Below, piece by piece: positions 4,326 through 50,109 of a DNA stretch of 64,000 bases. Both the position numbers and the translations under genes were made by a program. Source of the stretch: a virus; IMG/VR virus record IMGVR_UViG_3300027244_000194, positions 1 through 64,000 of that record; one strand, written 5' to 3'. Under the pieces are notes generated by a model that did not search any database, was not told the origin of the DNA, and worked only from the letters and a program-made list of their open reading frames with translations. The stretch's first letter is position 1. Every line of letters begins with the position of its first letter.

Positions 4326-4697
4326 ATGAGAACTTTTATCGAATATCTTGAAGCACAGAACGTTACAGAGGCAGAATTGAATGCCCTTAACGAGTCATTG
4401 CAATCTGAATGGACTGACGAACTCGAAGAAAGAGTTGACGCAGCTGTTGACGCATTTCTTGCTGAATATAAAAACGAAGACGGTACGTACGATATCGATA
4501 AGTTTAACGTTGAACTTACGAATGAAGGTGTTCTGGGTTCTATTTTAGGAGGTCTAACTGGTTTTGCACTTGGTAAATCTGTTGGTAAACTTCTGGCTAA
4601 GACGCTTGGTATTGAAAAGGGCTTGATGTACGATCTATTAACTTCAAGACTTGTCGGCGCCGCTCTAGGTGCAAGTCTTGGTAAAAACATGTTCTAA
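4326..4697 (+). CDS. Glycine-zipper protein with CTS-like N-terminus
   Basis: A 123-residue protein of unknown function. The N-terminus (MRTFIEYLEAQNVTEAE) resembles a capsid-targeting sequence with a possible gp21-type cut after V-T-E. An acidic helical middle follows. The C-terminal half is a hydrophobic glycine zipper (GSILGGLTGFALGKSVGKLL, then GAALGASLG) able to insert in a membrane. A small, head-targeted, membrane-active peptide could help DNA entry or be an internal head protein; this is inference. It starts next to a late-type box and overlaps the resolvase gene by one base (TAATG). Confidence 0.5.
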   Translation: MRTFIEYLEAQNVTEAELNALNESLQSEWTDELEERVDAAVDAFLAEYKNEDGTYDIDKFNVELTNEGVLGSILGGLTGFALGKSVGKLLAKTLGIEKGLMYDLLTSRLVGAALGASLGKNMF

Positions 4698-8397: not shown

Positions 8398-9906
8398 GTG
8401 GAGCTAACTTTAACTGACAACGCTCAGTTCTTAAGAATTGATCAGGCAACTGATCTTGAACTTGAGCAGTTGAACATATCGATGACTCGTCGAATCGAGG
8501 GTTGGCGTTTCAACCCCCTAGTTAAAAGGGGTGTTTGGGACGGTTACATCTCGTATGTAAAAGACGATAAGTGGATTCCTTCCGGTTTATGGCAAGAAGT
8601 GATGAAGATCTGTAAGAGCTACAACTATGAGCTTAAGATCAATGGCATTACTCGGCTGTTTGACAGAGACATAACATCAGAAGGATTCGAAGAATGGTCT
8701 CTTGAGTTTTTTGAAAGATCAGAAATGACTCCAAGGGACTATCAAATAGAAGCCGCATTTAACATTCTAAAATTCAGACGCTCTCTATCTGAGCTTGCTA
8801 CATCAGCCGGTAAGACAATGATTTCTTTCATGGCAGTTGCATATATGCTAGAGAAACAAAAGGCAAAAAAGATTTTGTTTATCGTACCTAACGTATCCCT
8901 GGTTGTTCAAGCAACTGAGGACTTTGGAGAATACAATTACGAGAATAGAATTCAAATGATGATTCAGCAAGTTTATGCTGGTCAAAAGATTAAAGACTCT
9001 AGAAACATTGTTATAGGAACATATCAATCGCTAGTTAAAAAGGGAAAAGACTTCTTTGAACAGTTTGATTGTGTGATTGTCGATGAAACGCACAAGGCCA
9101 AATCAGCCTCAATCAAAACCATTCTACAGAAGTGTGAAAACGCGACCTATAGGTTTGGTTTATCAGGTACTATTCCAAAGGATAACACACTAGATCGTTT
9201 AACCTTAATGTCACATACTGGACCTCTTATCACTGAGGTTAAGGCCGCTTTTTTACAAGATGAAGGTCATATTGCAAAGTGTAATGTGAAAGTAATTGAA
9301 ATGAATTACGCACCAGAAACAGCACGTAAGGCGTTTATGGAATTGTCAACAAACAGATACGAAAATAAAGACGTATTTCAGCTTGAACAAAACTACATTA
9401 TACAATCACCTGGAAGATTAAACTTTATTAGTAAAGTAATCGCTAAGATTCCAAACAACTCACTTGTGCTATTCCATAGAATTGAACACGGTAAAAGACT
9501 ATACGAAGAACTTCGTAGAAGAAGTAACAAGGCAGTCTACTATGTTGATGGAGGAACTGATAAGGATATTAGAGAAGAATATAAAAAGAAGATGGAACAA
9601 GGTGATGACATTATCATCGTCGCGTCTTATGGAACGTTCTCGACAGGTATCTCAATTAAAAAGATTCACAACATCTTTTTCACCGAGTCTTTCAAATCCG
9701 AGATCATTATTAGACAGTCAATTGGTCGTGGCCTTAGACAACATGAATCAAAGGATGCTGTAAATATCATTGACTTCGTTGACGATATTACATACGAAGG
9801 CCATCACAACTACCTATATAAACACGGTATTGCCCGCCAAAAGATCTATAGACAAGAAAAGTTTAGATATGAAATTAAAAGGGTAACCTTTGAGGGTGAT
9901 ATATAG
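8398..9906 (+). CDS. uvsW: UvsW-like DNA/RNA helicase
   Basis: Superfamily 2 helicase that remodels recombination intermediates and R-loops and helps the switch from origin to recombination-dependent replication. The 502-residue protein (T4: 503) has an N-terminal domain with the typical W-R-F-N-P-L-V-K-R-G-V-W-D-G pattern, then motif I (L-A-T-S-A-G-K-T), motif II (D-E-T-H-K), motif III (F-G-L-S-G-T), and C-terminal V-A-S-Y-G-T-F-S-T-G-I-S and Q-S-I-G-R-G-L-R-Q (motif VI). It starts with GTG; the upstream in-frame ATG at 8383 is closed by TGA three codons later, so GTG is preferred. The stop lies inside a late-type box. Confidence 0.9.
   Translation: MELTLTDNAQFLRIDQATDLELEQLNISMTRRIEGWRFNPLVKRGVWDGYISYVKDDKWIPSGLWQEVMKICKSYNYELKINGITRLFDRDITSEGFEEWSLEFFERSEMTPRDYQIEAAFNILKFRRSLSELATSAGKTMISFMAVAYMLEKQKAKKILFIVPNVSLVVQATEDFGEYNYENRIQMMIQQVYAGQKIKDSRNIVIGTYQSLVKKGKDFFEQFDCVIVDETHKAKSASIKTILQKCENATYRFGLSGTIPKDNTLDRLTLMSHTGPLITEVKAAFLQDEGHIAKCNVKVIEMNYAPETARKAFMELSTNRYENKDVFQLEQNYIIQSPGRLNFISKVIAKIPNNSLVLFHRIEHGKRLYEELRRRSNKAVYYVDGGTDKDIREEYKKKMEQGDDIIIVASYGTFSTGISIKKIHNIFFTESFKSEIIIRQSIGRGLRQHESKDAVNIIDFVDDITYEGHHNYLYKHGIARQKIYRQEKFRYEIKRVTFEGDI
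9898..9906 (+). promoter_or_regulatory. Late-promoter-like box GATATATAG
   Basis: GATATATAG overlaps the uvsW stop codon and precedes the first gene of the head-protein block by 41 nt. It marks the change from replication genes to a late, head-targeted gene block. Confidence 0.5.
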
Positions 9907-9947: not shown

Positions 9948-11792
9948 ATGGAACGTATTCAAAATTTCAAGTCATTTTCTACGCTAAAAACACAGCTTAG
10001 AGAAGAGGCCGAGAACCAACAAAAAGAAGTTTCAAGAGGTGAAGCGGCCGCTTCATTTAATGGGCTTCTGAAGAAATATAACGTAACTAGAGCTTCTGAA
10101 CTTACAGAAGATCAGTTAGAGGCTTTCACCGCCGAACTATTCGATCTAAACGAAGAAGAGGCTGGAATTGCTGAAGGTAGAGCTTTCATTTTCGCTGCTT
10201 CAAAGGCAAAAAGAGAGGGTAAAAAAGAGTTCGAATGGAACGGTAAGAAATACCCAATCACTTTGAAAGAATCTGAGACAGAGGAAGCAAAGGAAACCGA
10301 AGAAGTTAACGAAGGCAAAAGAGAGCGTAGTTCAGTAGTCAATGCTTGGAAAAAGTCAGGCGTTAAAGAACTAAATGCAATCGCTAGGGTTTACGCTGAT
10401 GCAATGGAAGATGCTAACTTTCACCAAGAAATCGTTACGTCAAAGGCAATCGGTTCTGCATCGAGAGCAAAGGGCCAAGGTCAAGTTTATTCAGACATCG
10501 CTAACGCTGCTAAGTGGGACGGTTATGCAATCGCTAACGGCACAGTAGATTACCTAAAAGAAATTGGTGAAAATGACGCGGCTGATAAGCTTCTTAACGC
10601 TATCACAAAATTCAATCTTAACGAGTCAGTTAACCTAAACTCTCTAGAGCAAATCATTGAAGAAGGTACAAGAGGCCAATTCGGTAAGATTTATAAGTCA
10701 GGCGAGATTGCATCAGTATACACTCACTACGATTCTTACCCAGAACACATGTTGCCAGTTATTAAGAAAGGTTACAAATCTGGTTCTGATGTTGATGCAG
10801 TTATCACAAAGGGAGATAATTCAGGTCTAGAGGCTGACATCAATAAGATTAAGTTCTATAACGATAAAAACTCTATGACACCTCTTAAGGGTTCAGTTAA
10901 GAATTTGAAGAAGTATATCAACGACGCTGACGCTAATGGTGCAGAATATGCATACCTTTATGACGAAAGAGACGGCAAGTGGTACATGATCGACCTTTAT
11001 GGAGATAGAGATCTTGTTCCAGCTTTTGAAGCAGTAGTCAATGAAGAGAATGAGCAATTATTCGAAGCAGAAGTTGAAATGGACGCAATGGATCCAGACA
11101 ATAAAGACTTCTTAAAATTCTTAAAGAAGAATAATGTTAAAATTATTAACAAGCAAATGGACGGTCCAGCAGGTGGTCACCCAGTTATCTTAATGCAAGG
11201 TAAGAGAAAAGACCTTGAAACTGTATTAGCAGATTGTGATTATGGATGGTGTGACGAAGACTTAGCAGAATACATTAAAGAATCAAAAGTATATGAAGCT
11301 GAAGTAGATATTTACGACGAAGTCGGCGGTCTAATTGAAGATCTATACGCAAAGCTAAATGATCTAGCTGAAGAAACAACCGACGCAGCTTGGAGAAAGG
11401 CCATTCAGAATATCATTAAAAACGTTGAAGCAGTTGAAAACAACCTTGGCAAAGCATCTAGCAAACTAGGTATTGTTCCAGTTCGCGAGTCTGATGAAGT
11501 TGAAGAAGGCAATGCTTTCGGTGACGCAGTAAGAAAGGCTAAAGAAGCTGGCGAAGAAGAGTTTGAATTCGATGGTAAGACTTACAAGGTCGAAGAGGCA
11601 GCTAAGGACGAGCAAAAGGCAATGGAACTTTATGTGTCTCTAGTTGATCTAAAGAAAGGTAAGCACTCTGAGTCTGAACTTCAATCAATGTCAGAAGACG
11701 AGCTATTCAATCTTGTTCAAACAGAAGGTGGTCTAAAAGGCGCTGAAGCAAAGAACGTTGCTAAAGAGCTTGCAAAGATCGCTAAAGGATAA
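9948..11792 (+). CDS. Large head-associated precursor protein with repeated gp21-type sites
   Basis: A 614-residue acidic protein I cannot assign to a named family. ATG 9948 is preferred over the TTG at 9942. It carries two copies of a roughly 30-residue module (E-G-x-A-F-x-x-A-x-x-A-K-x-x-G-x-x-E-F-E-[FW]-[DN]-G-K-x-Y) at residues about 76-108 and 520-550. The same module occurs in the gp21-gp22 scaffold at 47554-47652. Many short sites look like prohead-protease sites: V-N-E-G, L-N-E-S, L-F-E-A, V-Y-E-A. This suggests a core or internal protein processed into several pieces during head maturation; processing is inference. A strong terminator follows. Confidence 0.6.
   Translation: MERIQNFKSFSTLKTQLREEAENQQKEVSRGEAAASFNGLLKKYNVTRASELTEDQLEAFTAELFDLNEEEAGIAEGRAFIFAASKAKREGKKEFEWNGKKYPITLKESETEEAKETEEVNEGKRERSSVVNAWKKSGVKELNAIARVYADAMEDANFHQEIVTSKAIGSASRAKGQGQVYSDIANAAKWDGYAIANGTVDYLKEIGENDAADKLLNAITKFNLNESVNLNSLEQIIEEGTRGQFGKIYKSGEIASVYTHYDSYPEHMLPVIKKGYKSGSDVDAVITKGDNSGLEADINKIKFYNDKNSMTPLKGSVKNLKKYINDADANGAEYAYLYDERDGKWYMIDLYGDRDLVPAFEAVVNEENEQLFEAEVEMDAMDPDNKDFLKFLKKNNVKIINKQMDGPAGGHPVILMQGKRKDLETVLADCDYGWCDEDLAEYIKESKVYEAEVDIYDEVGGLIEDLYAKLNDLAEETTDAAWRKAIQNIIKNVEAVENNLGKASSKLGIVPVRESDEVEEGNAFGDAVRKAKEAGEEEFEFDGKTYKVEEAAKDEQKAMELYVSLVDLKKGKHSESELQSMSEDELFNLVQTEGGLKGAEAKNVAKELAKIAKG
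10173..10271 (+). repeat. Module copy 1, E-F-E-W-N-G-K-K-Y type
   Basis: Residues about 76-108 of the 9948 gene. The pattern E-G-R-A-F, A-x-K-A-K, E-F-E-W-N-G-K-K-Y-P matches a second copy in the same protein and one in the scaffold protein. Confidence 0.7.
11505..11597 (+). repeat. Module copy 2, E-F-E-F-D-G-K-T-Y type
   Basis: Residues about 520-550 of the 9948 gene. The E-F-D-G-K-T-Y core is identical to that in the gp21-gp22 fusion protein. Confidence 0.7.
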
Positions 11793-11801
11793 AAATAATC
11801 T

Positions 11802-11830
11802 GACCCGGATTTTTCCGGGTCGGTTTTTTT
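11802..11830 (+). terminator. Intrinsic terminator
   Basis: Perfect 8-bp stem GACCCGGA/TCCGGGTC with a 4-nt T loop, followed by GG and seven T. The right arm supplies the GGGTC of the promoter-like element that follows, so the two signals overlap. Confidence 0.85.
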
Positions 11831-11840
11831 GGTTATATTA
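11817..11840 (+). promoter_or_regulatory. Promoter-like element GGGTC-N12-TATATTA
   Basis: One of three sites with GGGTC, exactly 12 nt, then TATATT(A/T). Here it is followed by GCCCT and the ATG at 11846, so a transcript from it would be leaderless or nearly so. TATATTAG resembles the Bacteroidota -7 box TAnnTTTG with one mismatch. Confidence 0.5.
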
Positions 11841-11845
11841 GCCCT

Positions 11846-12148
11846 ATGAAACACGTTAAACTATATGAACAGTTCATCTCTGAAGGTATTTTCATGACCT
11901 ATAATCAGATGACTCCTTATGAGTACAACAAATTTGTTGAATCATACAAGGAGCTTCACCCTGATAACATGGTATCTTATGACAAGAAGCAGGATATGAC
12001 ATACGGTTTTCGTAAAGGTTCTAAAGAGGCTCATTGGAAATATGATCACGATACATTCAAATTACAACACAGTGAAAAGGACAGAGATGTTCTAGGCCTT
12101 ATTCACGGTAAAAAGTTTGTTGCTAAAAATCACCCATGGTCACTATGA
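11846..12148 (+). CDS. Small internal head protein candidate with CTS
   Basis: A 100-residue protein of unknown activity. Its N-terminus (MKHVKLYEQFISEG) closely matches T4 capsid-targeting sequences such as MKTYQEFIAE, with a predicted gp21 cut after I-S-E, before Gly. The mature part is charged and rich in Tyr, His and Lys. It is probably packed in the prohead core and injected. It overlaps the next gene by ATGA, and that gene also begins with a CTS, so they may form a pair. Confidence 0.6.
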   Translation: MKHVKLYEQFISEGIFMTYNQMTPYEYNKFVESYKELHPDNMVSYDKKQDMTYGFRKGSKEAHWKYDHDTFKLQHSEKDRDVLGLIHGKKFVAKNHPWSL

Positions 12149-12417
12149 AACGCGTAAAATTGTACGAAGCATTTGTTAATGAAGAAGTATCTTTCTCAAA
12201 GATTAAGAAATCATTGAAAGATGCTGCCTTCCCAGTGACACTAGTAGTTCACGCTAAAGGCGCCCAGGTTGGAGCAGTCATTCATCAGGAAGTAATTAAC
12301 ATTCCCGACGCCGTTCCAGCGAACTGGACAACTCTTAAAAAGCGTTACCCAACGTCCGGTTATCATTTCACACTTGAAGATGCTACCGGTAAAATAGTAT
12401 TTCAAGATAAAATCTAA
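12145..12417 (+). CDS. Small internal head protein candidate with CTS
   Basis: A 90-residue protein starting MKRVKLYEAFVNEE, a clear CTS with a predicted cut after V-N-E. ATG 12145 is chosen over the in-frame ATG at 12136 because it puts the CTS at the N-terminus and gives an ATGA overlap with the upstream stop. The mature domain is a small alpha/beta sequence (TLVVHAKGAQVGAVIHQEV, then SGYHFTLEDATGKIVFQD) of unknown role. Confidence 0.6.
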   Translation: MKRVKLYEAFVNEEVSFSKIKKSLKDAAFPVTLVVHAKGAQVGAVIHQEVINIPDAVPANWTTLKKRYPTSGYHFTLEDATGKIVFQDKI

Positions 12418-13706
12418 TGAAATTATTAACTTATAACCAATTCATCGTTGAAAGAGCAGGTCAAAGCTTGGCCGGCTCTGACCTCGTTTTAGAGGGTGGT
12501 GCTGCTGGTCACATGTCACATCCGTTTGATGACAAAGATCTAACGTTTGGCGACTTTAAAGCCATGATTGAAGCAGGTCTAAAGGGAGAATTGAACTTCG
12601 AAGAAGATCCAACTGAAAAAACAGATGGTCAAAACATCTTTGCAACAGTTAAAGATGGCGTTACAATGTTTGCAAGAAATGCAGGTCAGTTGAAAAACCC
12701 ATTGGACCTTAGTGGAGTTACTTCAATGTTTGCTGATCACCCTTCAGAGGGAGTTCGTAAGACATTTACTATGGCAGCTAATGATTTAGCTTCAGCCCTA
12801 GGCAAATTGAAGTCAGATTCACAAGAAAAATACTTTGACGGCGGTAAGAACTTCATGAATATGGAGTTAATCTTTTCGGGTAACTCTAATGTCATCAATT
12901 ACGATAAAGATGTAATTCAGTTCCACGGAATTAAATACACTGACGGTAACGGAAACATTACTGGTGAGTCTGGTCCTGGAGCAGCTAAAGAGCTTACAAA
13001 GATTCTACAAGACGTTAATGCTCACATTGGTAAAACATTCACGATCATTCCTCCACAGGTTCTTGTTCTGAGAAAGCACCAAGACTTTTCTGCCAAGCTA
13101 CCTTATTTCATGAAGAAGATTGAAGACCTTAAGAATCGTTACAAGCTTTCTGATTCAGACGAGGTTTCACGTTATCATGAAATGTGGTGGAGAGAAGAGA
13201 TCGATGCTTCATTCCCTAACCTTACACAAGACGTAAAAGAAGGTCTTCTTCAGAGATGGGCCTATAACAACAAACAAGGCATGGACTTTAGAGCCATGGC
13301 CAAACTCGTTGACGCTGCAGGTATGGATAAGATCAAGCAATACGATAAGATGGATGCTGGTAAGAAATACAAAGAAAACATTAGACCATTTGAAGATCTT
13401 TTCCTAGAGTTTGGTTCTGAGGTTCTAAAGAATGCTTCAAACTTCTTGGCTGCTTCACCTGATCAGGAAATGCAAAGACTTCACAATCAGATTAGAACAG
13501 AGGCGGGTAAGATTAAGAAAGGCGGAGACGTTAAGCAAATTCAAAAGGTTGAAGCTGAACTTGACAGACTTTCAAGAATTGGTGGAATTGATTCAATCAT
13601 TCCTTCTGAAGGTCTAGTGTTCAAGTATAAGGGTAAAATATATAAGCTAACTGGCACCTTTGCTGCAATCAACCAGCTAATGGGTATTATTAAATACGGA
13701 AGATAA
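12417..13706 (+). CDS. Nucleotidyltransferase/ligase-fold protein with CTS
   Basis: Probable member of the covalent nucleotidyltransferase (DNA/RNA ligase) superfamily. The 429-residue protein begins MKLLTYNQFIVERAG, a CTS with a predicted cut after I-V-E. Motif I is E-K-T-D-G-Q-N near residue 62, with the Lys nucleophile in K-x-D-G, followed by F-A-R-N. A motif III-like N-M-E-L-I-F is near residue 145, and a motif IV/V-like E-G-L-V-F-K-Y followed by Y-K-L-T-G lies near the C-terminus. A helical domain sits between III and IV. Substrate (DNA, RNA or other) cannot be told. The CTS implies it is carried in the head and injected, which would be unusual for a ligase. Confidence 0.6.
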   Translation: MKLLTYNQFIVERAGQSLAGSDLVLEGGAAGHMSHPFDDKDLTFGDFKAMIEAGLKGELNFEEDPTEKTDGQNIFATVKDGVTMFARNAGQLKNPLDLSGVTSMFADHPSEGVRKTFTMAANDLASALGKLKSDSQEKYFDGGKNFMNMELIFSGNSNVINYDKDVIQFHGIKYTDGNGNITGESGPGAAKELTKILQDVNAHIGKTFTIIPPQVLVLRKHQDFSAKLPYFMKKIEDLKNRYKLSDSDEVSRYHEMWWREEIDASFPNLTQDVKEGLLQRWAYNNKQGMDFRAMAKLVDAAGMDKIKQYDKMDAGKKYKENIRPFEDLFLEFGSEVLKNASNFLAASPDQEMQRLHNQIRTEAGKIKKGGDVKQIQKVEAELDRLSRIGGIDSIIPSEGLVFKYKGKIYKLTGTFAAINQLMGIIKYGR

Positions 13707-13708
13707 AA

Positions 13709-15574
13709 ATGGCACTACCTAAACTTAGAGATCACTTCAACGATACGAATCGCGAAAACTTCATGGCAATGTTAACCCAAAAGGTTCACGCTGTTGAGAA
13801 GATCGCTGCTTCATCATTTCACGTCAGAAGAGATGATCTAACCAACAAGTACTACAAATCAGGTTCTGAAAGAGCTATGGATATTGTAGATCGTACTATC
13901 GTTAGATTTTATGAAAATGCTATTCGTCACTTTCAAGGTTTAGGTGATGAAATGAAGAGCGACATGCCGAAGGATTGGAAGTTTGGTTTTGATTATCTGA
14001 TTGAAAATGAAACTCCAAATTTTAAGTACGCTCTTCTTCCTAAGAATAATTTAATTCTAACGCATATCCAGGTTCTTAACGAATCAGGCAGGGTTTCTAA
14101 GGTGATTAGAGACACTGAGGTCCTAAACAAGTGGGCAAAGAAACTTGATGTTCAAAAGCCACCTGTGATCTTCGAAGGCATGCTGACGATGTTCCAGAAG
14201 GAGCAATTGATCAAAATTCTAGAAATGAACGATAATGAATTTGAAAAAGTATACGAAAATCGTTCATTCACCAGAGACATCTATAACATTTTTAATTCAG
14301 GCATGTCTAGAACTGCGCTGAATGAATCAGTTAATGAAGAAATTGATGGTTTAGTTGTTTCGTTTGTTGATGGCAAATCAATGAAGTCTTTCAAGCTAGA
14401 AGATTATAGAAGAAAGAATGAAGAAACAGAAAGAAAGTCTTCTGATGTTTATCAAATCACAATGGTAGACGTTATTGAATACTTCACAAACCATGATTTT
14501 TCACAATACAAACTAGTTGAAGAAAAGAAAGACAGAAGATTTATAGAAATCATGTCTGAATCATTTAACGATTACATTAAGGCTAATGCCGCAAAATATA
14601 TTGGTGTTAAGTTTGAGACAGCTGATTTCGCAAAGAATGAAGCCTTTAATCTAAACACCGCGTTTTTGAAAAACGAACAAACCTTAAAATACGTCAACAA
14701 CCCAATCCTATCTGAGCTTTTCAAAATTGTTTTATCTTCTTTTAGAAATAAAAGAGAGAAGGCAAGTGATATTCTAACCGAGGACATGGTTGCACAGCTA
14801 AACGAGATCATCGATAAGATTTACGAGCAGATTGACGCAAAATTAGAAGAGAACGACGTAATGGACTTTACATCATTTAAGAAGTGGTCTTCAATTCAGG
14901 AAGATGCTCCAGAAGGAGAAGTTAATGAAGCCCTAAAGGTTAAGACCCTAGAACATGGTAAACAAAAAGTAAATATGTTTGTTGGCAGATTCCAACCTTT
15001 TACTCTAGGTCACGCTAAAGTTCTTCAGTCTCTACATGATCAGAACGGCCTACCAGTTGTAGTATTCCTAGTTAAGTCAAAGACGGCTAAAAAGGAAGAT
15101 GCATTCAAAAGACCTTATGACGAGGCAATGCAAATGAAAATGTTTAAGGCAGTTCAAAGGGAATACAAGTTCCTAAAAGATATTATTGTTGTTCCATTCG
15201 CTGCAATTGACGCCCTATTCAATGAGTTAAGACCTAAGTACGAACCAGTCTTATGGGGTACAGGTACAGATAGAATGGCAGCTTACTCTTCACAGGCATA
15301 CAAAGAAACGTACAGAGAACAATTGAACGTTCTACCTGAGTTTGGTATGCATGAAATTCACAGAACAGATGATGACATCTCAGCAACTGCGGTTAGAAAC
15401 GCAATGATGTCCGATAATAAGACAGAGTTTCAAAGAATGACACCAAAGTCACTTCACGGAATGTACCCAGTTCTACAGTCTGAGCTTTTAAAAGCTATGA
15501 CAGCTGCGGAGTCAAAAGTAAATGAAGAATTGATGACCTTTGAACAGTTCATCAACAAGTTTAGCAATGAGTAA
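13709..15574 (+). CDS. Fusion: ligase-fold domain plus NMN adenylyltransferase-like domain
   Basis: A 621-residue two-domain protein. The N-terminal half resembles a nucleotidyltransferase: V-E-K-I-A-A-S-S-F-H-V near residue 30, W-K-F-G-F-D near 91, and D-G-L-V-V with F-K-L-E-D near 212-228. The usual K-x-D-G motif I reads K-I-A-A, so activity is doubtful. The C-terminal part, from about residue 423, is an NMNAT-type cytidylyltransferase-fold domain: F-V-G-R-F-Q-P-F-T-L-G-H (ATP-binding GRFQPxxxGH) and late I-S-A-T-A-V-R (ISxTxxR). It probably makes NAD from NMN and ATP. The extreme C-terminus (ELMTFEQFINKFSNE) looks like a CTS placed at the wrong end. It lies in the head-protein block. Confidence 0.7.
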   Translation: MALPKLRDHFNDTNRENFMAMLTQKVHAVEKIAASSFHVRRDDLTNKYYKSGSERAMDIVDRTIVRFYENAIRHFQGLGDEMKSDMPKDWKFGFDYLIENETPNFKYALLPKNNLILTHIQVLNESGRVSKVIRDTEVLNKWAKKLDVQKPPVIFEGMLTMFQKEQLIKILEMNDNEFEKVYENRSFTRDIYNIFNSGMSRTALNESVNEEIDGLVVSFVDGKSMKSFKLEDYRRKNEETERKSSDVYQITMVDVIEYFTNHDFSQYKLVEEKKDRRFIEIMSESFNDYIKANAAKYIGVKFETADFAKNEAFNLNTAFLKNEQTLKYVNNPILSELFKIVLSSFRNKREKASDILTEDMVAQLNEIIDKIYEQIDAKLEENDVMDFTSFKKWSSIQEDAPEGEVNEALKVKTLEHGKQKVNMFVGRFQPFTLGHAKVLQSLHDQNGLPVVVFLVKSKTAKKEDAFKRPYDEAMQMKMFKAVQREYKFLKDIIVVPFAAIDALFNELRPKYEPVLWGTGTDRMAAYSSQAYKETYREQLNVLPEFGMHEIHRTDDDISATAVRNAMMSDNKTEFQRMTPKSLHGMYPVLQSELLKAMTAAESKVNEELMTFEQFINKFSNE

Positions 15575-16718
15575 TTTAATTAGATCTAATTTTGCAAGAG
15601 AACTTCAGCTGATCAACGAGACTGAAGAATACACAGCATACGGAATTAAGAACCCTGCTCTTACTAAAGCGGTTTCTTCTAAGAAGGCACAATTTGATAA
15701 GTACCTTCAAAACCTACAAAGGACAGGAGGTTCACCTTTTGCCGACATGATTAAGACACTTAATTCCCTGTCAGGTAAGGATCTTGCAATCTTCGTTGAA
15801 GGACTTGGAAAGTATTCGAGCCTTGAGGCCCTACAGCCTAACTATCTTAAAGAAGTTAATTCATCTTCGTTCTCAAATGGTCTATTCAATACGCAATCAA
15901 AGGGTATTGGTCCTGGTGAATTGTGGTTGGCTTGGGTGGTTGATGGTGTTAGAATCTCAGGCGGCGGAGAATCCTTTGACGTAACACACAATGAAAAAGG
16001 ACAATACGAAGTTAAGTCATACGCTGACTCTCATTCTCCATTCAGATTGGGTAATGCAGGTGCAGCTTCTCAATTCGTATGGTTGAGAAAAATGAGACAC
16101 GTTGCCGAAATCACAGAAGAGATTGTTGCAATTCCAGGTCTAAAAGATATGCACCCTGAAATCTTCAATGCAGCTGCGACCGTAAATTCAAGAGGTGAAG
16201 GTAAATCAGCAGCTTCTGATTTTTCTAGAGGTGAAGTATCAAAAGAACTTATTAGCTCTGTGATTGATTTCATTAAGATTGCAAAAGAGCAATTAGCGAA
16301 TAGGTCTACAGGATACGATATCATTGAGGTGAAATCAACTTCACCCGGTAATCCAAACATGTCTTTTATTATCGAACCCGCAAAGGAAGCAGATATTAAA
16401 GCAGGTAAATTTAAGATCATTAAGCAAGTTAATATGGCTGACGTTTCAAACGAAGAAGCACTATACAGAATGCTTGCAAAGAACGAATATGTTAGAGCAG
16501 GCGTTGAATCGCTAGTTAAAGACATCAATGATGGTCTTGCAAATGTTGAAAAGAAATACGCTAAAATGAAATTCGTTGTCTTTAGAAAAGAGGCAATGAA
16601 CATTACTTCAGGGTTGAAGAAGGTTCAAGGAACCGATATTGCATCACAATACGGAGCTGGTAAAGAAGCCATCTTTGGTATGTCAGGAGCCCTACTAAGA
16701 GTAAGAGAAGATGCGTAA
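15567..16718 (+). CDS. PD-(D/E)XK nuclease-like protein in the head-protein block
   Basis: A 383-residue protein. ATG 15567 is preferred over the upstream TTG at 15540 and overlaps the previous gene by 8 nt. The N-terminus (MSNLIRSNFARELQLINETE) has a CTS-like end with L-I-N-E. Near residue 120 there is G-P-G-E-L-W-L-A-W, then S-F-D-V, then Y-E-V-K-S-Y, an E...D-x(8)-E-V-K arrangement typical of PD-(D/E)XK nucleases. The rest is helical and basic. A nuclease entering with the DNA could attack host DNA or counter defence; function is inference. Confidence 0.5.
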   Translation: MSNLIRSNFARELQLINETEEYTAYGIKNPALTKAVSSKKAQFDKYLQNLQRTGGSPFADMIKTLNSLSGKDLAIFVEGLGKYSSLEALQPNYLKEVNSSSFSNGLFNTQSKGIGPGELWLAWVVDGVRISGGGESFDVTHNEKGQYEVKSYADSHSPFRLGNAGAASQFVWLRKMRHVAEITEEIVAIPGLKDMHPEIFNAAATVNSRGEGKSAASDFSRGEVSKELISSVIDFIKIAKEQLANRSTGYDIIEVKSTSPGNPNMSFIIEPAKEADIKAGKFKIIKQVNMADVSNEEALYRMLAKNEYVRAGVESLVKDINDGLANVEKKYAKMKFVVFRKEAMNITSGLKKVQGTDIASQYGAGKEAIFGMSGALLRVREDA

Positions 16719-16726
16719 TATATAAA
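16719..16726 (+). promoter_or_regulatory. Late-promoter-like box TATATAAA
   Basis: TATATAAA follows the stop of the nuclease-like gene and lies 30 nt before the next CTS gene. Confidence 0.45.
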
Positions 16727-16756
16727 ATAAGATATTAAAAAAGACAACACTTAAAA

Positions 16757-17776
16757 ATGAGAGTATTTGAGTCATTTGGAACATTCTTAAATGAATTCTA
16801 CAACGAAGATCAGGCTTATACCCTGTTCAAAACTTATGGTGGTAGAAACATTGAGAGAAAGCCAGCTTACACATCTGATCTTTTTGGTTCAAACGCTGTT
16901 CAGCTGAAAGACGCACAGCAAAAAGAACTAGACCTAACCCACATTCCAGTTTATACATCTAAGGATGTTTGGGGTAAAATGGCACCAAAAGGAATCTATG
17001 CTAATTTTGCAAACACACCTACTGAAACGATCTTTATTCTTTGGTTGAATCACGAACAAGGTGAACTTAAGGACTACTACGGTCAATGTGTTTTCGTTGA
17101 TACTCAAGGCGCTAATTACGTAAGATACGGCTTTGGTATGGACTACGAACCAGATCTAAGCAAATTTGCAATGGGCGTACCAGAATCTCTAGAAAACGAA
17201 GTTGAGATTGAAGGCGAAATTGACGAAGCTAAAGGTTACAACATGGAAGACATCAGATATGCGATGCAACAAGTGTTCAGTGAGGTTGGCTTTGATAAAG
17301 CTCTGAAAAGAATCTCTAAAGTTAAAGGTGGTTTCCAAATGAACATGTCATCGTACATGTCTCCATCTTCCCTTGAAGGTTATGGCATGATTAAGATGTT
17401 TAGCGAAATCATGGGTCACGAGTTCAAAATGGACGTTGATTCATTCACAAAGGGTGGCCTTACATCTATCGTAATCCTAGAAGGTGAACAAATCACCGAA
17501 GGTAAAATCACTCTAAAAAGACGTTACACTGACAACTATCCACAGATCACAGTATCTAAGTTTGGTCCAGTCAGAGACAAGATCATCGAAGCAATTGCAG
17601 ACGGTAAAGTAACGACTGAAGAATTTGAAACAATCATTAAGGAATTCTCTACTGCTTCTAGAAGATGGGCGAAATCAAATCGTCACTACTTCAACGTTTC
17701 AGAAGATGGTATCTCACTGTCGAAGTACGGCCAGAGAATCCTATCTAAAATTAAAACAGTAAACGAAAATGAATAA
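16757..17776 (+). CDS. Internal head protein candidate with CTS
   Basis: A 339-residue protein of unknown fold. The N-terminus MRVFESFGTFLNEFYNE fits a CTS with a cut after F-L-N-E. Later Glu-Gly and Glu-Ala sites (I-E-G-E, I-D-E-A, I-T-E-G) could be additional protease sites and would separate an N-terminal domain (about 1-165) from a C-terminal one. No catalytic motif was recognised. It overlaps the next gene by 8 nt. Confidence 0.55.
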   Translation: MRVFESFGTFLNEFYNEDQAYTLFKTYGGRNIERKPAYTSDLFGSNAVQLKDAQQKELDLTHIPVYTSKDVWGKMAPKGIYANFANTPTETIFILWLNHEQGELKDYYGQCVFVDTQGANYVRYGFGMDYEPDLSKFAMGVPESLENEVEIEGEIDEAKGYNMEDIRYAMQQVFSEVGFDKALKRISKVKGGFQMNMSSYMSPSSLEGYGMIKMFSEIMGHEFKMDVDSFTKGGLTSIVILEGEQITEGKITLKRRYTDNYPQITVSKFGPVRDKIIEAIADGKVTTEEFETIIKEFSTASRRWAKSNRHYFNVSEDGISLSKYGQRILSKIKTVNENE

Positions 17777-18776
17777 GATTCACACAACATTCGAAAGCTT
17801 TGTTAATGAGTCATTAGAGGTTAACGAAGCATTCAAGTCTTCAAAGTTGGCTTCTATTCTTGGCCTATCTTCGGCTAGGAAGGACATAATGAAAGCAGTT
17901 TATAATTTCACTAAGGTTAAGCTAGATGAAATTACTGACGATCAAGTGGTTGAACTACACCCAGCTGAGGCTTATAAGACCAAAGCTCACCCTAACGCTA
18001 TCTTTTTCTATATCTCCGATAATGAGAAAGGAAACCCATACGCTGATCACAGTCAATCTAAATACACCGGTTACGGTACTATTCCAGGTAACACTCTTTT
18101 GGCCATTGCAAATGGTAAAAATGAAATGTTTGCAATGGATTACACTAGAGGATGGAATAGATCAGCTCCTTACGAACCAAAACTAAAGAATGCCGGTAAA
18201 TACGGTAAAGAAGCTTCATCTATAGGCATTGACAAGCAACATTCTGGTTATGGTGCTTCAGGTCTATCAAACATCAAGAGAATTTCTGAGGTTTCAGATA
18301 GAGTTCTAATGTTTGATCCATCTATTCTTCCAAGCGCTGCAGATCAAAAAGCTAGCAGATCAGCTGCTAAAGCAGGCGCAACAGCATTCATGACAGATAA
18401 GGAATTCAAACAGGAGAACATGAACAGATACAAAATGATTCTTGCAACTAGAGCAGCCAGCGATGATATTGACGGTATGGTTGAAAAGGCAATTGAAACT
18501 GTAACTGGACATATTCAAAGCGCTCTTAAGAATAAGACTGCGGGTAGATACGAGTCAATGATCATTGGCACCGACAAGAAAGGTCGCGAAATCTCTATGA
18601 GAGATGCCGCTAACGTTATTTCTAATATACTTGACATGTATCAAAGTTATGTTAGATACACTAACGATGCTAAAAATCCTGAAGGTAGTAAATACTACAC
18701 AAGAGAAGCTTCTACCTACGCTAAGAGCATTAAAGACAAGGTTAAAAAAGTAAATGACATGGATTACGCTTGGTAA
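17769..18776 (+). CDS. Internal head protein candidate with CTS
   Basis: A 335-residue protein of unknown function. The N-terminus MNKIHTTFESFVNESLEVNEA holds two nested possible gp21 sites, after F-V-N-E and after V-N-E. A polar alpha/beta part with many Tyr and Gly residues follows, then a Lys-rich helical C-terminus. Mature composition is basic, suitable for DNA contact inside the head. No catalytic motif seen. Confidence 0.55.
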   Translation: MNKIHTTFESFVNESLEVNEAFKSSKLASILGLSSARKDIMKAVYNFTKVKLDEITDDQVVELHPAEAYKTKAHPNAIFFYISDNEKGNPYADHSQSKYTGYGTIPGNTLLAIANGKNEMFAMDYTRGWNRSAPYEPKLKNAGKYGKEASSIGIDKQHSGYGASGLSNIKRISEVSDRVLMFDPSILPSAADQKASRSAAKAGATAFMTDKEFKQENMNRYKMILATRAASDDIDGMVEKAIETVTGHIQSALKNKTAGRYESMIIGTDKKGREISMRDAANVISNILDMYQSYVRYTNDAKNPEGSKYYTREASTYAKSIKDKVKKVNDMDYAW

Positions 18777-18814
18777 TCATTAAACCAACTAAAGATTAAA
18801 CATATCTATAAATA

Positions 18815-19507
18815 ATGAAACACGTAAAACTATTTGAACAATTCATCTTCGAAGCTTCTAACGAGAAGAGAATTAAAGAGATTCAAGCAGAATTGCAGGA
18901 CATCGAAAAAGAAATGGAAGATGTTCAAGACGCTATGGACAATGGCGACTTTGATGAAGATGAGGCTGAACTTCGCCTAAATGATCTAGACGGTAACAAA
19001 CTAGATCTAGAAGCTGAATTAGAAAAGCTTAAAGGTGGTGATAAAGACAAAGATCAAGAGAAAGTTAGACCAGTTGTTGCAAAAACAATTCAAATTATTG
19101 GAGAATTGAGTTATCAATCTTCTAAATGGTCTGCAATGTTGCAACACGTTCCATCAGATAAGAAAAATTTGATGAAATCTTTGAAAGAGAGAGACGAAGC
19201 AGAGGAGACGAAAGCAGATGCAGTTGCAGAAAAGGTGATTGCTAAATGCGATAAGTTAGAGGATAAAATGTCATCGGATATGTTAGCGCTATATTCTTTT
19301 GCTAAAGGTGAATATAAATCATCAAGAAAAGCTTTTATGAAAGCAGGATCAGCATTACAAGGTGTAAAAGAGACTTGTAAAGATCTTAAAAAGGGTTGCG
19401 ATGAAGTTGCAGCTCGTAAAAAGACATACGACGAAGTATTTTCTAAATTTCAACAAGCTCAAGCTAAGTTAAGAGAATTGGCAAAAGTTGCTGGCGTTAG
19501 AGTCTAA
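18815..19507 (+). CDS. Coiled-coil internal head protein candidate with CTS
   Basis: A 230-residue protein beginning MKHVKLFEQFIFEA, nearly the same CTS as the gene at 11846 and with a clear cut after I-F-E before Ala. The next 90 residues are a strongly acidic coiled coil (EIQAELQDIEKEMEDVQDAM). The C-terminal part is Lys-rich and helical. TATAAATA (18807-18814) directly abuts the start codon. No enzyme motif. Confidence 0.6.
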   Translation: MKHVKLFEQFIFEASNEKRIKEIQAELQDIEKEMEDVQDAMDNGDFDEDEAELRLNDLDGNKLDLEAELEKLKGGDKDKDQEKVRPVVAKTIQIIGELSYQSSKWSAMLQHVPSDKKNLMKSLKERDEAEETKADAVAEKVIAKCDKLEDKMSSDMLALYSFAKGEYKSSRKAFMKAGSALQGVKETCKDLKKGCDEVAARKKTYDEVFSKFQQAQAKLRELAKVAGVRV

Positions 19508-19533
19508 TCTCTAAACAATATAGAGCTATTAAA

Positions 19534-20094
19534 ATGCCAAGCACTAGTAAATCACAACAACGTTTAATGGGAGTTGCATACGCCGTCAAGAAGGGCGATA
19601 TGCAACTTTCAGACGTTGACGCGACTTACAGAAATAAGGTGTCAGATCTAGTAGACAGTATGACACTTAAACAACTTAAAGATTTTGCAGAAACAAGCCA
19701 TGAAGGTCTTCCAGAGGTTAAGGAAGATACGATGTTCAGCACGTTGGGTGGAGCGTCTTTATCGAATCTTGGTCCAGGTATGTTGGGTGGGATGGGAGAC
19801 CCTGTTTTACCCGATGCCGGCTCCGATGGTTCAGGAGATGTACCTGCCGGCCAAGGCGATGCTAAGGAAGAGTATCGTAAGAAAAAGAAAAAGAGACGTA
19901 AACTCTTAATGACAATGGAGGAATTCATTGTTGAAAAACAATTAAAGGCATTTTCACCTGATCAACCAGAAGAAGAATCTGTTGGCGGTGGAGATTATGA
20001 AAAGGGCTCAGTTCCCATTCCAGATCAAGAAATGATCGAAAAAGGAAATATGCTTAGCAAGGTTCGTCAAATTATTGGCATTGCTAACAATTAA
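19534..20094 (+). CDS. DUF3008-like protein with internal CTS-like segment
   Basis: A 186-residue protein. The N-terminal 60 residues (SKSQQRLMGVAYAVKKGDM) fit the small DUF3008-type phage family of unknown function, from memory of the S-x-x-Q-x-x-L-M-G-x-A pattern. A Gly/Pro/Asp-rich linker follows. After a basic stretch (YRKKKKKRRKLL) there is M-T-M-E-E-F-I-V-E-K, which looks like a CTS in the middle of the protein rather than at its start. The gene is the last of the head-protein block. Confidence 0.55.
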   Translation: MPSTSKSQQRLMGVAYAVKKGDMQLSDVDATYRNKVSDLVDSMTLKQLKDFAETSHEGLPEVKEDTMFSTLGGASLSNLGPGMLGGMGDPVLPDAGSDGSGDVPAGQGDAKEEYRKKKKKRRKLLMTMEEFIVEKQLKAFSPDQPEEESVGGGDYEKGSVPIPDQEMIEKGNMLSKVRQIIGIANN

Positions 20095-45798: not shown

Positions 45799-46143
45799 AT
45801 GAAAAATCTAAAGACATTTGAACAATACTGGTCTTCAATTACTGAAGATGCTATTAAAGCCGGAGAAGAATCAGAAGTTGTGATCGACGATATGATTACA
45901 ACCGATGGAACTGAAATCTCTTCAGAAGAGATCTTAGGCATTGTAATATCTTCTGAAACAGAGGAAGAAACAGTAGATAAAATGTACGATAAGTTTGGTC
46001 AATTATCATTTTCTACTGAAGACATTGAAAAGATCAAAAAGTATTTCAATGATTATCAAGCAGAAGTGAAAGAGAAAGAAAAAGAAGCTGAGAAAGAAGC
46101 TGATGGTGGAGATGGAGAGGAAGATCCTCTAGCAGATCTATAA
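45799..46143 (+). CDS. Prohead core protein, gp67-like
   Basis: A 114-residue protein beginning MKNLKTFEQYWSSITED, a CTS-like start with a possible cut after I-T-E. The rest is acidic and helical, ending in E-K-E-A-D-G-G-D-G-E-E-D-P-L. Acidic C-terminus, small size and position between portal and protease equal those of T4 gp67, a core protein degraded to internal peptides. Assigned by position and composition. Confidence 0.6.
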   Translation: MKNLKTFEQYWSSITEDAIKAGEESEVVIDDMITTDGTEISSEEILGIVISSETEEETVDKMYDKFGQLSFSTEDIEKIKKYFNDYQAEVKEKEKEAEKEADGGDGEEDPLADL

Positions 46144-46170: not shown

Positions 46171-46179
46171 GATATATAA
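46171..46179 (+). promoter_or_regulatory. Late-promoter-like box GATATATAA
   Basis: GGATATATAAACC, 21 nt before the protease-scaffold gene. Confidence 0.5.
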
Positions 46180-46200: not shown

Positions 46201-48336
46201 ATGAATCAACATAATCTATTGATCCTTGAGAGATCATCGAATACACTGGACTTCAAATCAGAAGGAGGTTCATACGTACTCGAAGGTATTTTCGGAGAGC
46301 TGGACAAAAAGAATAGAAACAATCGTATCTATACAGCTGAAGAATACTTACCACAAATCGAATCTCTACAGGAGAAAATCAAGTCATCTAAGCTATTAGG
46401 TGAGCTTGATCACCCACAAAAATTTGACATTTCTCTAAGAAACGTTTCACACGTAATCGAGGAACTTCACTACGATCAAGATTCTAAGCAAATCAGAGGT
46501 AGAATCAGACTACTAGACACAGATGCTGGAAAGCAAGCTAAAGCTCTAGTTGATTCTGGCATTCCATTGCACATCTCTTCAAGAGCTGCTGGTGTTGTTG
46601 AATCAGACGGTAAAGTTAAAATCAAGCAACTTTTCACTTACGATCTAGTTGCTGATCCAGGTTTCGAGAACGCTGAACTTGCAAGAGTAAATGAATCTTA
46701 CGGACTAGCTAACGACGATCTAATTCAAATCTATGAAATTGGAGGAGTTGCTACTCTACTTGAAACAGAAACTAAAATCGAAAATAACGATACAAACATC
46801 ATGGAAAACAAAGCTAGATTTATAGCGGTTGAAGATTTCAACAAGTACTCTGCCTACCTTGCTGAAGAGATCAAATCGCTTAAAGAAGCTCTAGCCGCCG
46901 TTTCTACTGAGACTATTGAAGAGAAGATGAAAGCTCTTACAGAGTACGTAGAATACGTTGCTGAAAGAGCTGACAAAGGTATTCAGTACTCTGAGTACGT
47001 TGCAGAAAAATTAGATGGTAACATCGAATACTCTAACTACTTGGCAGAAAAGTTGGACCAAGGAATTGAATACTCTGAGCACATCGCTGAGTCAGTAAAT
47101 AACGTTAAGGATTACGCTAATTATTTGGCAGAATCTTACAACGAAGGTGTTACTACAGGTGAGAATGTTCAAAAGTATCTAAACTACCTAAAAGAAAACA
47201 TCGAGTCAATCTCTGAATACGCTGATTACATTGCTGAAACTATTAATTCTAACCTAATCGTTGAAGAAGAAGGTGAAGGAGCAGCAAAAGATCACGAAGA
47301 AGCAGCAGACAAGAACGAGCTAGAAAACGTTGGTGACAATTCAGCTGAAGGTTCAGTTGATGCAGCTGGTGAAGAAGCTGGTGTTGAAGCTGAAGACCTA
47401 GAGGCTGACACTAAAGAGGTTTACTCTGAAGATGACAAGAAAGAACTTGACGCAGCTGATCAAGACGCACCAGAAGATGAAGGTGAAGAAGCTGCTAAAG
47501 AAGTTGTTGAAGCTGAAGAGTCAGAAGAGACTGAAGAGACTGAAGAAGTCGAAGAAGGAAGAGCTTTCGCTGCTGCAGCTAAAGAAGCTAAAGATAAAGG
47601 TGAGAAAGAATTTGAATTCGACGGTAAGACATACCCTGTAACAGTTAAAGAAGGTGAAGAAGTTGAAGAATCTGCTGAAGGTGCTATCGACGCTGAAGAC
47701 CTAGAAGCTGATATGGACGAAGTTTCTTCTGAAGACGATAAGAAAATCACTAAGCAAGCTGATCAGGAAATTCCATCTGAAGAAGATGCAATCACCGATG
47801 ACGCTCTAGAGTCTTACAAAAGAGAAATCTCTGAGAAGCTTTCTTCTCTAATCAACAAAGCTACTGAAAAGAAGACTAACGATCCTCACTTCTTCAAGTT
47901 TGTATCTGAATCTACTAAGACAAGATTCAACGAACTAGAAGTTGAAGACAGAACTAAAGTTCTTTCAGCAGTTGAAGGTAGAGGTTACCTAACAGAGTCA
48001 CAAATTGTTACTCTAATGGAAGGTGCTCTAGTTGAAGTTGCAGGTCAAACTACTCCTTACTTTGTGGAAGCTGCTCCAGCTGAATACAAAGAGATCTGGA
48101 ATAACCTATCTGAAGCTAAGAGAAATCAATTATCTGCTCAAGCTAAGATGGTGAAGCTTTCTACTCCTTACCAAGTTGCTAACTTCTGGCAAACAAGAGA
48201 TCTAAGAGAAGTTGCTCCAGTTATGGAAAAGCTAACTATGATCACAGAAGCTAAGAAAGAAGAAGCTCCTAAGAAATCTATCGGTTACGATGTAACTGGT
48301 ATTGGCGAAGAAATCGCTAAGAGATTTAAGAAGTAA
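46201..48336 (+). CDS. 21-22: Fused prohead protease gp21 and core scaffold gp22
   Basis: A 711-residue fusion. Residues 1-190 are the gp21 serine protease: L-E-G-I-F-G-E-L-D, N-R-N-N-R-I-Y, L-G-E-L-D-H-P (catalytic His region), and I-S-S-R-A-A-G (catalytic Ser). Then come seven 14-residue helical repeats (46945-47259), a long acidic part with one E-F-E-F-D-G-K-T-Y module, and a gp22-like helical C-terminus. T4 makes gp21 and gp22 from separate genes. An in-frame ATG at 46801 (MENKARFIAVEDF), after L-L-E-T-E, could yield scaffold alone, like lambda C/Nu3. Terminator follows. Confidence 0.8.
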   Translation: MNQHNLLILERSSNTLDFKSEGGSYVLEGIFGELDKKNRNNRIYTAEEYLPQIESLQEKIKSSKLLGELDHPQKFDISLRNVSHVIEELHYDQDSKQIRGRIRLLDTDAGKQAKALVDSGIPLHISSRAAGVVESDGKVKIKQLFTYDLVADPGFENAELARVNESYGLANDDLIQIYEIGGVATLLETETKIENNDTNIMENKARFIAVEDFNKYSAYLAEEIKSLKEALAAVSTETIEEKMKALTEYVEYVAERADKGIQYSEYVAEKLDGNIEYSNYLAEKLDQGIEYSEHIAESVNNVKDYANYLAESYNEGVTTGENVQKYLNYLKENIESISEYADYIAETINSNLIVEEEGEGAAKDHEEAADKNELENVGDNSAEGSVDAAGEEAGVEAEDLEADTKEVYSEDDKKELDAADQDAPEDEGEEAAKEVVEAEESEETEETEEVEEGRAFAAAAKEAKDKGEKEFEFDGKTYPVTVKEGEEVEESAEGAIDAEDLEADMDEVSSEDDKKITKQADQEIPSEEDAITDDALESYKREISEKLSSLINKATEKKTNDPHFFKFVSESTKTRFNELEVEDRTKVLSAVEGRGYLTESQIVTLMEGALVEVAGQTTPYFVEAAPAEYKEIWNNLSEAKRNQLSAQAKMVKLSTPYQVANFWQTRDLREVAPVMEKLTMITEAKKEEAPKKSIGYDVTGIGEEIAKRFKK
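46945..47259 (+). repeat. Seven 14-residue repeats in the scaffold
   Basis: Consensus Y-S-x-Y-[VL]-A-E-K-L-D-x-G-I-E: five in tandem from residue 249, a 7-residue break, then two more. Fourteen residues equal two heptads, so the block is an extended regular coiled coil, suitable for the prohead core. Confidence 0.75.
47554..47652 (+). repeat. E-F-E-F-D-G-K-T-Y module in the scaffold
   Basis: Residues 452-484, matching two modules of the 9948 gene. It is flanked by a roughly 30-residue acidic duplication (A-E-D-L-E-A-D...E-D-D-K-K at both sides). Confidence 0.7.
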
Positions 48337-50100: not shown

Positions 50101-50109
50101 GATATATAG
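50101..50109 (+). promoter_or_regulatory. Late-promoter-like box GATATATAG
   Basis: GGATATATAGG, just after the capsid terminator and 27 nt before the next start. Confidence 0.5.

Follow-up and report, generated by a model that had tools for sequence, protein, structure and literature searches.

A probable T4-like capsid-targeting motif shared by unrelated proteins of an uncultured marine T4-like phage and its relatives

The stretch of DNA considered here (the window) comprises bases 1-64,000 of the 170,561-bp virus record IMGVR_UViG_3300027244_000194, the remainder of which was read as overlapping stretches. Its source is an uncultured T4-like marine phage, for which no close nucleotide relatives were found among named phages, and between positions 9948 and 20094 it carries a block of genes, named below by the position of their first base, several of whose products begin with the same short motif. 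A first-pass annotation had likened these N-termini to the capsid-targeting sequence (CTS) of the T4 internal proteins (IPs), and the starts that it quoted (at 11846, 12145, 12417, 16757, 17769, 18815, 45799, 50149 and 4326) are all present as starts of open reading frames. The window also contains a T4-type head module that comprises a portal protein (PHROG 213, 5.6e-70), a head maturation protease fused to scaffold (PHROG 207, 1.9e-36), a major head protein (PHROG 138, 5.6e-42), terminase, sheath and tube, and a gp21-type prohead protease and a T4-type capsid are thus both encoded in the same genome as the shared motif. The capsid protein is closest to those of uncultured megaphages, Prevotella Lak phages and Tenacibaculum phage PTm1.

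Enrichment and anatomy of the N-terminal tag

The shared N-terminus, referred to here as the tag, was evaluated using a strict rule that requires the T4 capsid-targeting spacing [FY]xx[FY][ILVM]xE near the protein start, with expected counts generated from shuffled N-termini. The strict tag is found in 11 genes of the 170.6-kb genome compared to an expected count of 0.75, and the search of related phages that the annotation had proposed extends the pattern, since five relatives hold 11, 5, 8, 7 and 25 tagged genes where 0.5-0.9 are expected in each (0.83 in the richest). Other aromatic spacings occur 0 or 1 times in this genome and 0-2 times over the genomes scanned, so that only the T4 spacing is enriched. 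Written as a strict DNA pattern, the tag matched at least 120 viral stretches in IMG/VR (2.9 million viral contigs); a composition-matched scramble, which retains the DNA pattern with F and E swapped, gave no matches in the viral contigs, and the strict pattern gave none in bacterial and archaeal genomes. Among the DNA-pattern matches listed, 106 of the 107 unique proteins are at least 50 residues long or run off the contig end. A chance origin of the tags is excluded.

Mutations in T4 IPIII have shown that residues 4 and 7 matter for targeting and residues 8 and 10 for processing (PMC9026906). The spacing of the tag corresponds to these four positions, and the same rule applied to T4 as a control returns IPII, IPIII and gp61.1, so that the proposed match to the T4 internal-protein CTS is supported. 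In T4 gp23 the rule marks FGSFLTE at residues 59-65, which ends at the known 65-residue propeptide cut. T4 gp61.1 (gene 61.1; 18966-19130 of the stretch scanned) begins MKTFKEFIKE, which resembles a capsid-targeting sequence.

The consensus over 67 tags is M-K-[HK]-[IVL]-K-L-[FY]-E-x-F-[ILV]-N-E. Conservation drops directly past the Glu, and 34 of the 67 have A, G or S as the first residue beyond it (P1'). The 264 tagged proteins fall into 76 clusters whose mature parts are mutually unrelated, and the alignment of 49 representatives is restricted to MKxxKLFExFxNE. Where tag residues agree, third codon bases are identical in only 54-68% of cases, and because these bases vary while the residues do not, selection on the tag acts at the level of protein, not DNA. 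These observations leave very little room for the proposal that the resemblance is due to chance, or that recombination at gene starts has recently scattered functionless copies of a short DNA segment. The motif is indeed short, and some tags within one genome are near-identical in protein sequence, but the shuffles, the spacing controls and the pattern scramble contradict the proposal, as do a third-base identity of just 0.54-0.68 and the behaviour of the ligase-like protein 12417, all 57 orthologs of which retain the motif as the rest of the propeptide diverges.

Repeats of the motif in the protease-scaffold fusion

The prohead protease encoded at 46201 contains the segments GELDHP and HISSRAAG, which we take to resemble the catalytic His and Ser motifs of gp21-type proteases. 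In its scaffold half, Y-x-x-[YH]-[LVI]-x-E occurs at 8 places in 160 residues, mostly with a 14-residue spacing, compared to a mean of 0.07 copies and a maximum of 2 in shuffled scaffold. Overall the fused scaffold carries 7-9 copies, of which 7-8 persist in distant relatives that share about 31-37% identity. A comparable run is found in no other protein of the genomes scanned, and the T4 scaffold has no such repeats on the same scan. Because the scaffold repeats the motif of the tag, and both hold a presumed protease cut site, the tag looks like a single scaffold repeat. This match suggests how cargo may be recruited to the core, which a recent review continues to describe as mysterious (PMC9958956). 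A module like GRAFxxAxxxAKxxGxxEFExxGKxYPV in the C-terminal half of the fusion is seen again in the 9948 protein, as well as in further tagged proteins that the relatives encode.

The scaffold repeats also bear on the possibility that the shared N-terminus directs proteins to another destination (tail, membrane or an intracellular compartment) or is a translational or regulatory signal. This possibility draws on the shortness of the tag, on the promoter-like element that often lies closely upstream of the start codon, and on the fact that localization is predicted from sequence only. We consider it very improbable, because the motif is repeated in the scaffold and not in a tail or membrane protein, because its conservation ends at a protease-type Glu and is exerted on the protein and not the DNA, and because a start-codon signal cannot explain the C-terminal and internal-junction motifs described below.

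All 25 copies of the upstream element, GATATATA, lie on the + strand and none on the - strand, often 12-47 nt ahead of genes that include the protease-scaffold, sheath, tube and some tagged genes. Over six genomes it lies within 70 nt of 21 of 79 tagged genes vs 91 of 1,218 others (p = 8e-7). From its placement it is a candidate late promoter of the phage, the counterpart of T4 TATAAATA. The T4 late promoter itself was rejected as a shared late element, since TATAAATA is not enriched ahead of the tagged genes, whereas GATATATA is.

The tagged genes and their products

The annotation had described the block at 9948-20094 as an arsenal of proteins with such N-termini. This holds for 11846, 12145, 12417, 16757, 17769 and 18815 (Table 1) and fails elsewhere, since 9948 has the aromatic pair only, 13709 has its motif at the C-terminus, 19534 has an internal motif and 15567 has none. 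Orthologs of 9948 begin MQKLKSFQQFATE or MHKLKSFDQFSTE. The further tags expected at 45799 and 50149 are found, the first in tag-like and the second in strict form; the possible tag at 4326 is degenerate in this phage, but its orthologs begin MKTFLDYIAE. The system is larger than had been claimed, since beyond the window there is a tagged gene at 105,590, and another cluster of them spans 159,497-163,308 (for example MKRIKLFEDFVNE, MKQLKTYTTFVNE and MKHVKLFEEFLNE).

Table 1. Coordinates of the tagged genes, head genes and upstream elements in the window (aa, amino acids)
Feature	Position	Strand	Details and basis
Conserved 123-aa protein, degenerate start MRTFIEYLEAQ, glycine-rich hydrophobic C-terminus	4326..4697	+	66 homologs
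GATATATA	9898..9905	+	Ahead of tagged block; candidate late promoter
614-aa multidomain protein	9948..11792	+	Start MERIQNFKSFSTLK, aromatic pair F..F present, cut-site Glu absent
100-aa protein, strict tag MKHVKLYEQFISE/G (cut position)	11846..12148	+	12-member family
90-aa protein, strict tag MKRVKLYEAFVNE, then E	12145..12417	+	Strict motif scan, clustering
RNA-ligase-like covalent nucleotidyltransferase, strict tag MKLLTYNQFIVE	12417..13706	+	Motifs, fold search, orthologs
Protein with C-terminal NMN-adenylyltransferase-like domain, tag-like C-terminal end LMTFEQFINKFSNE	13709..15574	+	Profile, orthologs
383-aa protein without clear tag	15567..16718	+	Reading of the open reading frame
339-aa protein, strict tag MRVFESFGTFLNE	16757..17776	+	Fused to following gene in many relatives
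335-aa conserved unknown, strict tag MNKIHTTFESFVNE, second site VNE/AF	17769..18776	+	Motif scan, relatives
230-aa coiled-coil-like protein, strict tag MKHVKLFEQFIFE, A past cut	18815..19507	+	Motif scan
DUF3008 protein, internal tag-like site MTMEEFIVE past basic linker	19534..20094	+	Profile, orthologs
Gene in position of gp67 (core protein), between portal and protease, tag-like start MKNLKTFEQYWSSITE	45799..46143	+	Canonical MKHVKLFEEFLSE in one relative, next to the protease
GATATATA	46171..46178	+	Ahead of protease-scaffold gene
711-aa prohead protease fused to scaffold	46201..48336	+	PHROG 207 match, repeat scan
T4-type major capsid protein	48544..50037	+	Family match
GATATATA	50101..50108	+	Ahead of tagged gene 50149
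400-aa charged protein, strict tag MKSAIKLYESFLKE then G, adjoining capsid gene	50149..51351	+	Behind GATATATA element
GATATATA, further sites	40996, 60933, 63270, among others	+	Ahead of structural and tagged genes

Tag-like motifs are also found away from the protein start. The 13709 protein has no N-terminal tag, and its tag-like ending is TFEQFI. The form TFxx[FY][IVLM] closes 47 of the 51 orthologs, in most of them with the Glu missing; one of the remaining four has TYEQFI, and the other three are different proteins. C-terminal tags are not enriched genome-wide and are clear only in this nicotinamide mononucleotide adenylyltransferase (NMNAT)-like family. Because the T4 data separate targeting from processing, it is plausible by analogy that the 13709 motif is a targeting tag which is not cut. 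In many relatives 16757 and 17769 form one longer protein, many of whose junctions resemble ESFSEFVExLNEAF, which is tag-like and offers a possible cut site, and some orthologs of 19534 have KTFEQFINE at an internal site.

Orthologs of 12417 carry the relaxed tag in 57 of 57 cases and the T4-strict form in 51 of 57, although the length and sequence of the propeptide vary. The family has an invariant EGGAAGHM past the tag, nearly always behind a hydrophobic-x pair, which makes a second possible cut site (hydrophobic-x-E/GGAAGHM). Its KxDG, EGxV and distal Lys elements (K68-x-D70-G71, E398-G399-x-V401 and K410) are invariant in 35 sequences, and its top Foldseek matches are RNA ligases, led by T4 RNA ligase 1, with a best E of 7e-3 and low TM-scores; Pfam and NCBIfam gave no ligase match. 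The 13709 protein matches CTP_transf_like at 36.6 bits (cut-off 21), and matches NMNAT equivalog models below their cut-offs. Beyond the window, the tagged P-loop protein at 159,497 matches AAA_33 and a PHROG polynucleotide kinase; the tagged protein at 161,823 has the HAD motif DLDDT and matches a PHROG polynucleotide-kinase family, with no match to a solved structure; and the tagged protein at 105,590 matches an ATP-grasp R2K enzyme. By analogy, 12417, 159,497 and 161,823 taken together look like the T4 RNA-repair set of Pnkp and Rnl1 in divided form. Within the block, the FDV...EVKSY pattern of 15567, noted by eye, suggests a PD-(D/E)XK nuclease fold, and family searches with this protein gave no match; a structure search with 17769 gave no confident fold match.

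The tagged cargo of the relatives includes Acb1-like, NMNAT-like, ATP-grasp and weakly matching GNAT-like proteins. The Acb1-like protein matches PF23474 at 31.5 bits (cut-off 27) and is remote from solved Acb1 (E about 0.01). At the 18 loci found, 14 were inspected; all of these members have two HxT motifs (HCT and HMT), 13 have the tag and the other has a variant of it that is one residue off. In bearing a head tag this protein differs from known Acb1. Many of the cargos are apparently counter-defence, RNA-repair or metabolite enzymes, to judge by their family matches and motifs. Acb1 counters signalling by the cyclic oligonucleotide-based antiphage signalling system (CBASS). Phages are also known to rebuild NAD+ against NAD-depleting defences (PMC12774641). 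On both of these grounds a counter-defence role would fit the cargo.

The isolate Methylophilales phage Melnitz-3 has 5 tags vs 0.55 expected, and at 12203-16866 of the stretch scanned it encodes a tagged KxDG ligase-like protein (MLTLINFSKYITE), a second tagged gene, which is nuclease-like, and an adjoining cytidylyltransferase. Kinase homologs from pelagiphage HTVC008M and from Melnitz have retained hydrophobic-x-E-G[LV]YDP at their start, which in the window phage reads VNE-GYYDP. Because profile-profile comparison of 12417 with the KxDG proteins of Melnitz or HTVC008M gave no significant match, these ligase-like proteins are termed similar in motif and context, not homologous. In Mel-JY01 (11243-13162 of the stretch scanned) a homolog of 12417 lies inside a gene annotated as cytidylyltransferase-like, an arrangement which suggests that the ligase-like and cytidylyltransferase-like activities work together. 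Outside the window, at 69500-71034 and 120985-123760, short open reading frames have translations that resemble those of tRNA genes (for example GLEPATLWSQTRCATTCATSRG) and possibly mark tRNA arrays.

Proposed loading of the head and alternative roles

Tagged internal proteins are a known kind, because T4 Ip1, Ip2 and Ip3 have only a leader in common and are injected inhibitors of different restriction enzymes, and at least 10 such internal proteins have been reported across related phages (PMC12373910). The proteins described here share with T4 IPI, IPII and IPIII a short N-terminal peptide with the geometry of residues 4, 7, 8 and 10, unrelated mature parts, and a T4-type prohead protease and capsid encoded in the same genome. 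They differ in scale, since tagged genes number up to about 25 in a genome of this clade and T4 has three IPs; in the tag itself, which is longer (MKxhKLFExFhNE) than the T4 CTS; in a cargo that includes recognizable enzymes; in the tag-like motifs at the C-terminus and at junctions; and in a scaffold that repeats the motif where that of T4 does not. T4 Alt, too, is a head-packaged enzyme which the prohead protease trims, at its C-terminus included, but it is a single enzyme. The phiKZ-type giant phages (for example SPN3US) also load many proteins into the head, some of them cleaved by a prohead protease (PMC5694885, PMC7411985); they are a different lineage, and the likeness is one of description. 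New here are the clade and the scale, together with the enzymes carried, the places in which the tag is found and its match to the scaffold. No description of this tag system was found in searches of an open-access library, which does not prove that none exists.

It is very probable, on the sequence evidence assembled above, that the tagged proteins are made late, recruited to the core through the tag, cut past the Glu, packed with the DNA and injected. The shared N-terminus of about 13 residues would act as a combined targeting and processing signal like the CTS of T4 IPIII, on proteins synthesized late in infection. Its aromatic face (F1, F4 and h5, on one side of a helix) would dock on the scaffold core, whose repeats share the motif, and the prohead protease would cleave past the Glu of [LIV]xE, which would free the mature cargo and take the scaffold apart at corresponding sites. 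Once free, the proteins would be packed with the DNA and would enter the host at infection, and across the clade the tag would constitute a general loading system whose cargos, about 5-25 in each genome, are unrelated in sequence. The sequences directly show the motif with its enrichment, its modularity and its conservation up to the Glu, the scaffold repeats that match it and the families of the cargo; from these we infer that the cargo binds the core, is cleaved, packaged and injected, and functions as proposed.

Several observations weigh against this account. Virion proteomics or cleavage data for the clade were not found, and the clade has been met only as metagenome contigs. About 0.5-1 false positive is expected per genome, and in Melnitz the tag on a clamp-loader-like start is a probable example. 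The Glu is absent from some members, and the NMNAT-like protein has its motif at the opposite end. The T4-like phages PTm1, S-WAM1 and Mel-JY01 carry chance-level numbers of tags, and a scan of HTVC008M gave zero.

The nearest rival accepts the tag as a true core-targeting signal and holds that many of the tagged proteins work in the head itself, in core assembly, head size determination or DNA condensation, and are not injected effectors. This is a serious but unlikely alternative. T4 IPIII also influences head assembly (PMC9026906), and some of the tagged proteins look structural, namely the coiled-coil-like 18815, the charged, capsid-adjacent 50149, 45799 in the position of gp67, and 9948 with its scaffold module. 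Many cargos nonetheless have intact enzyme motifs (Acb1-like, P-loop kinase, ATP-grasp, RNA-ligase-like and NMNAT-like), and the repertoire varies greatly among relatives, which would be expected for accessory effectors and not for assembly factors.

Delivery of tagged cargo into the host, which we prefer, can be extended to a more specific picture, towards which we lean with limited assurance. The tag may be a single-repeat mimic of the 14-residue scaffold motif, turned by this marine T4-like clade into a general loading system. A large kit of exchangeable parts (an anti-CBASS nuclease, NMNAT and ATP-grasp enzymes, and a kinase, a phosphatase and a ligase for RNA repair) would be delivered ahead of any phage gene expression, and variants may include internally tagged polyproteins cut by the protease, as well as targeting by a C-terminal tag that stays uncut.

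The T4 internal proteins are now known as injected restriction inhibitors, and only a handful are known per phage. A readable tag would make the content of a phage head predictable from its genome, and given this predictability the tagged unknowns would be the first candidates in a search for counter-defence genes that act early in uncultured marine phages. Efforts to package foreign proteins into phage heads could take the tag as a guide as well. If the reading proposed here is true, these phages would reach the host already equipped with a large set of enzymes for host takeover and anti-defence.

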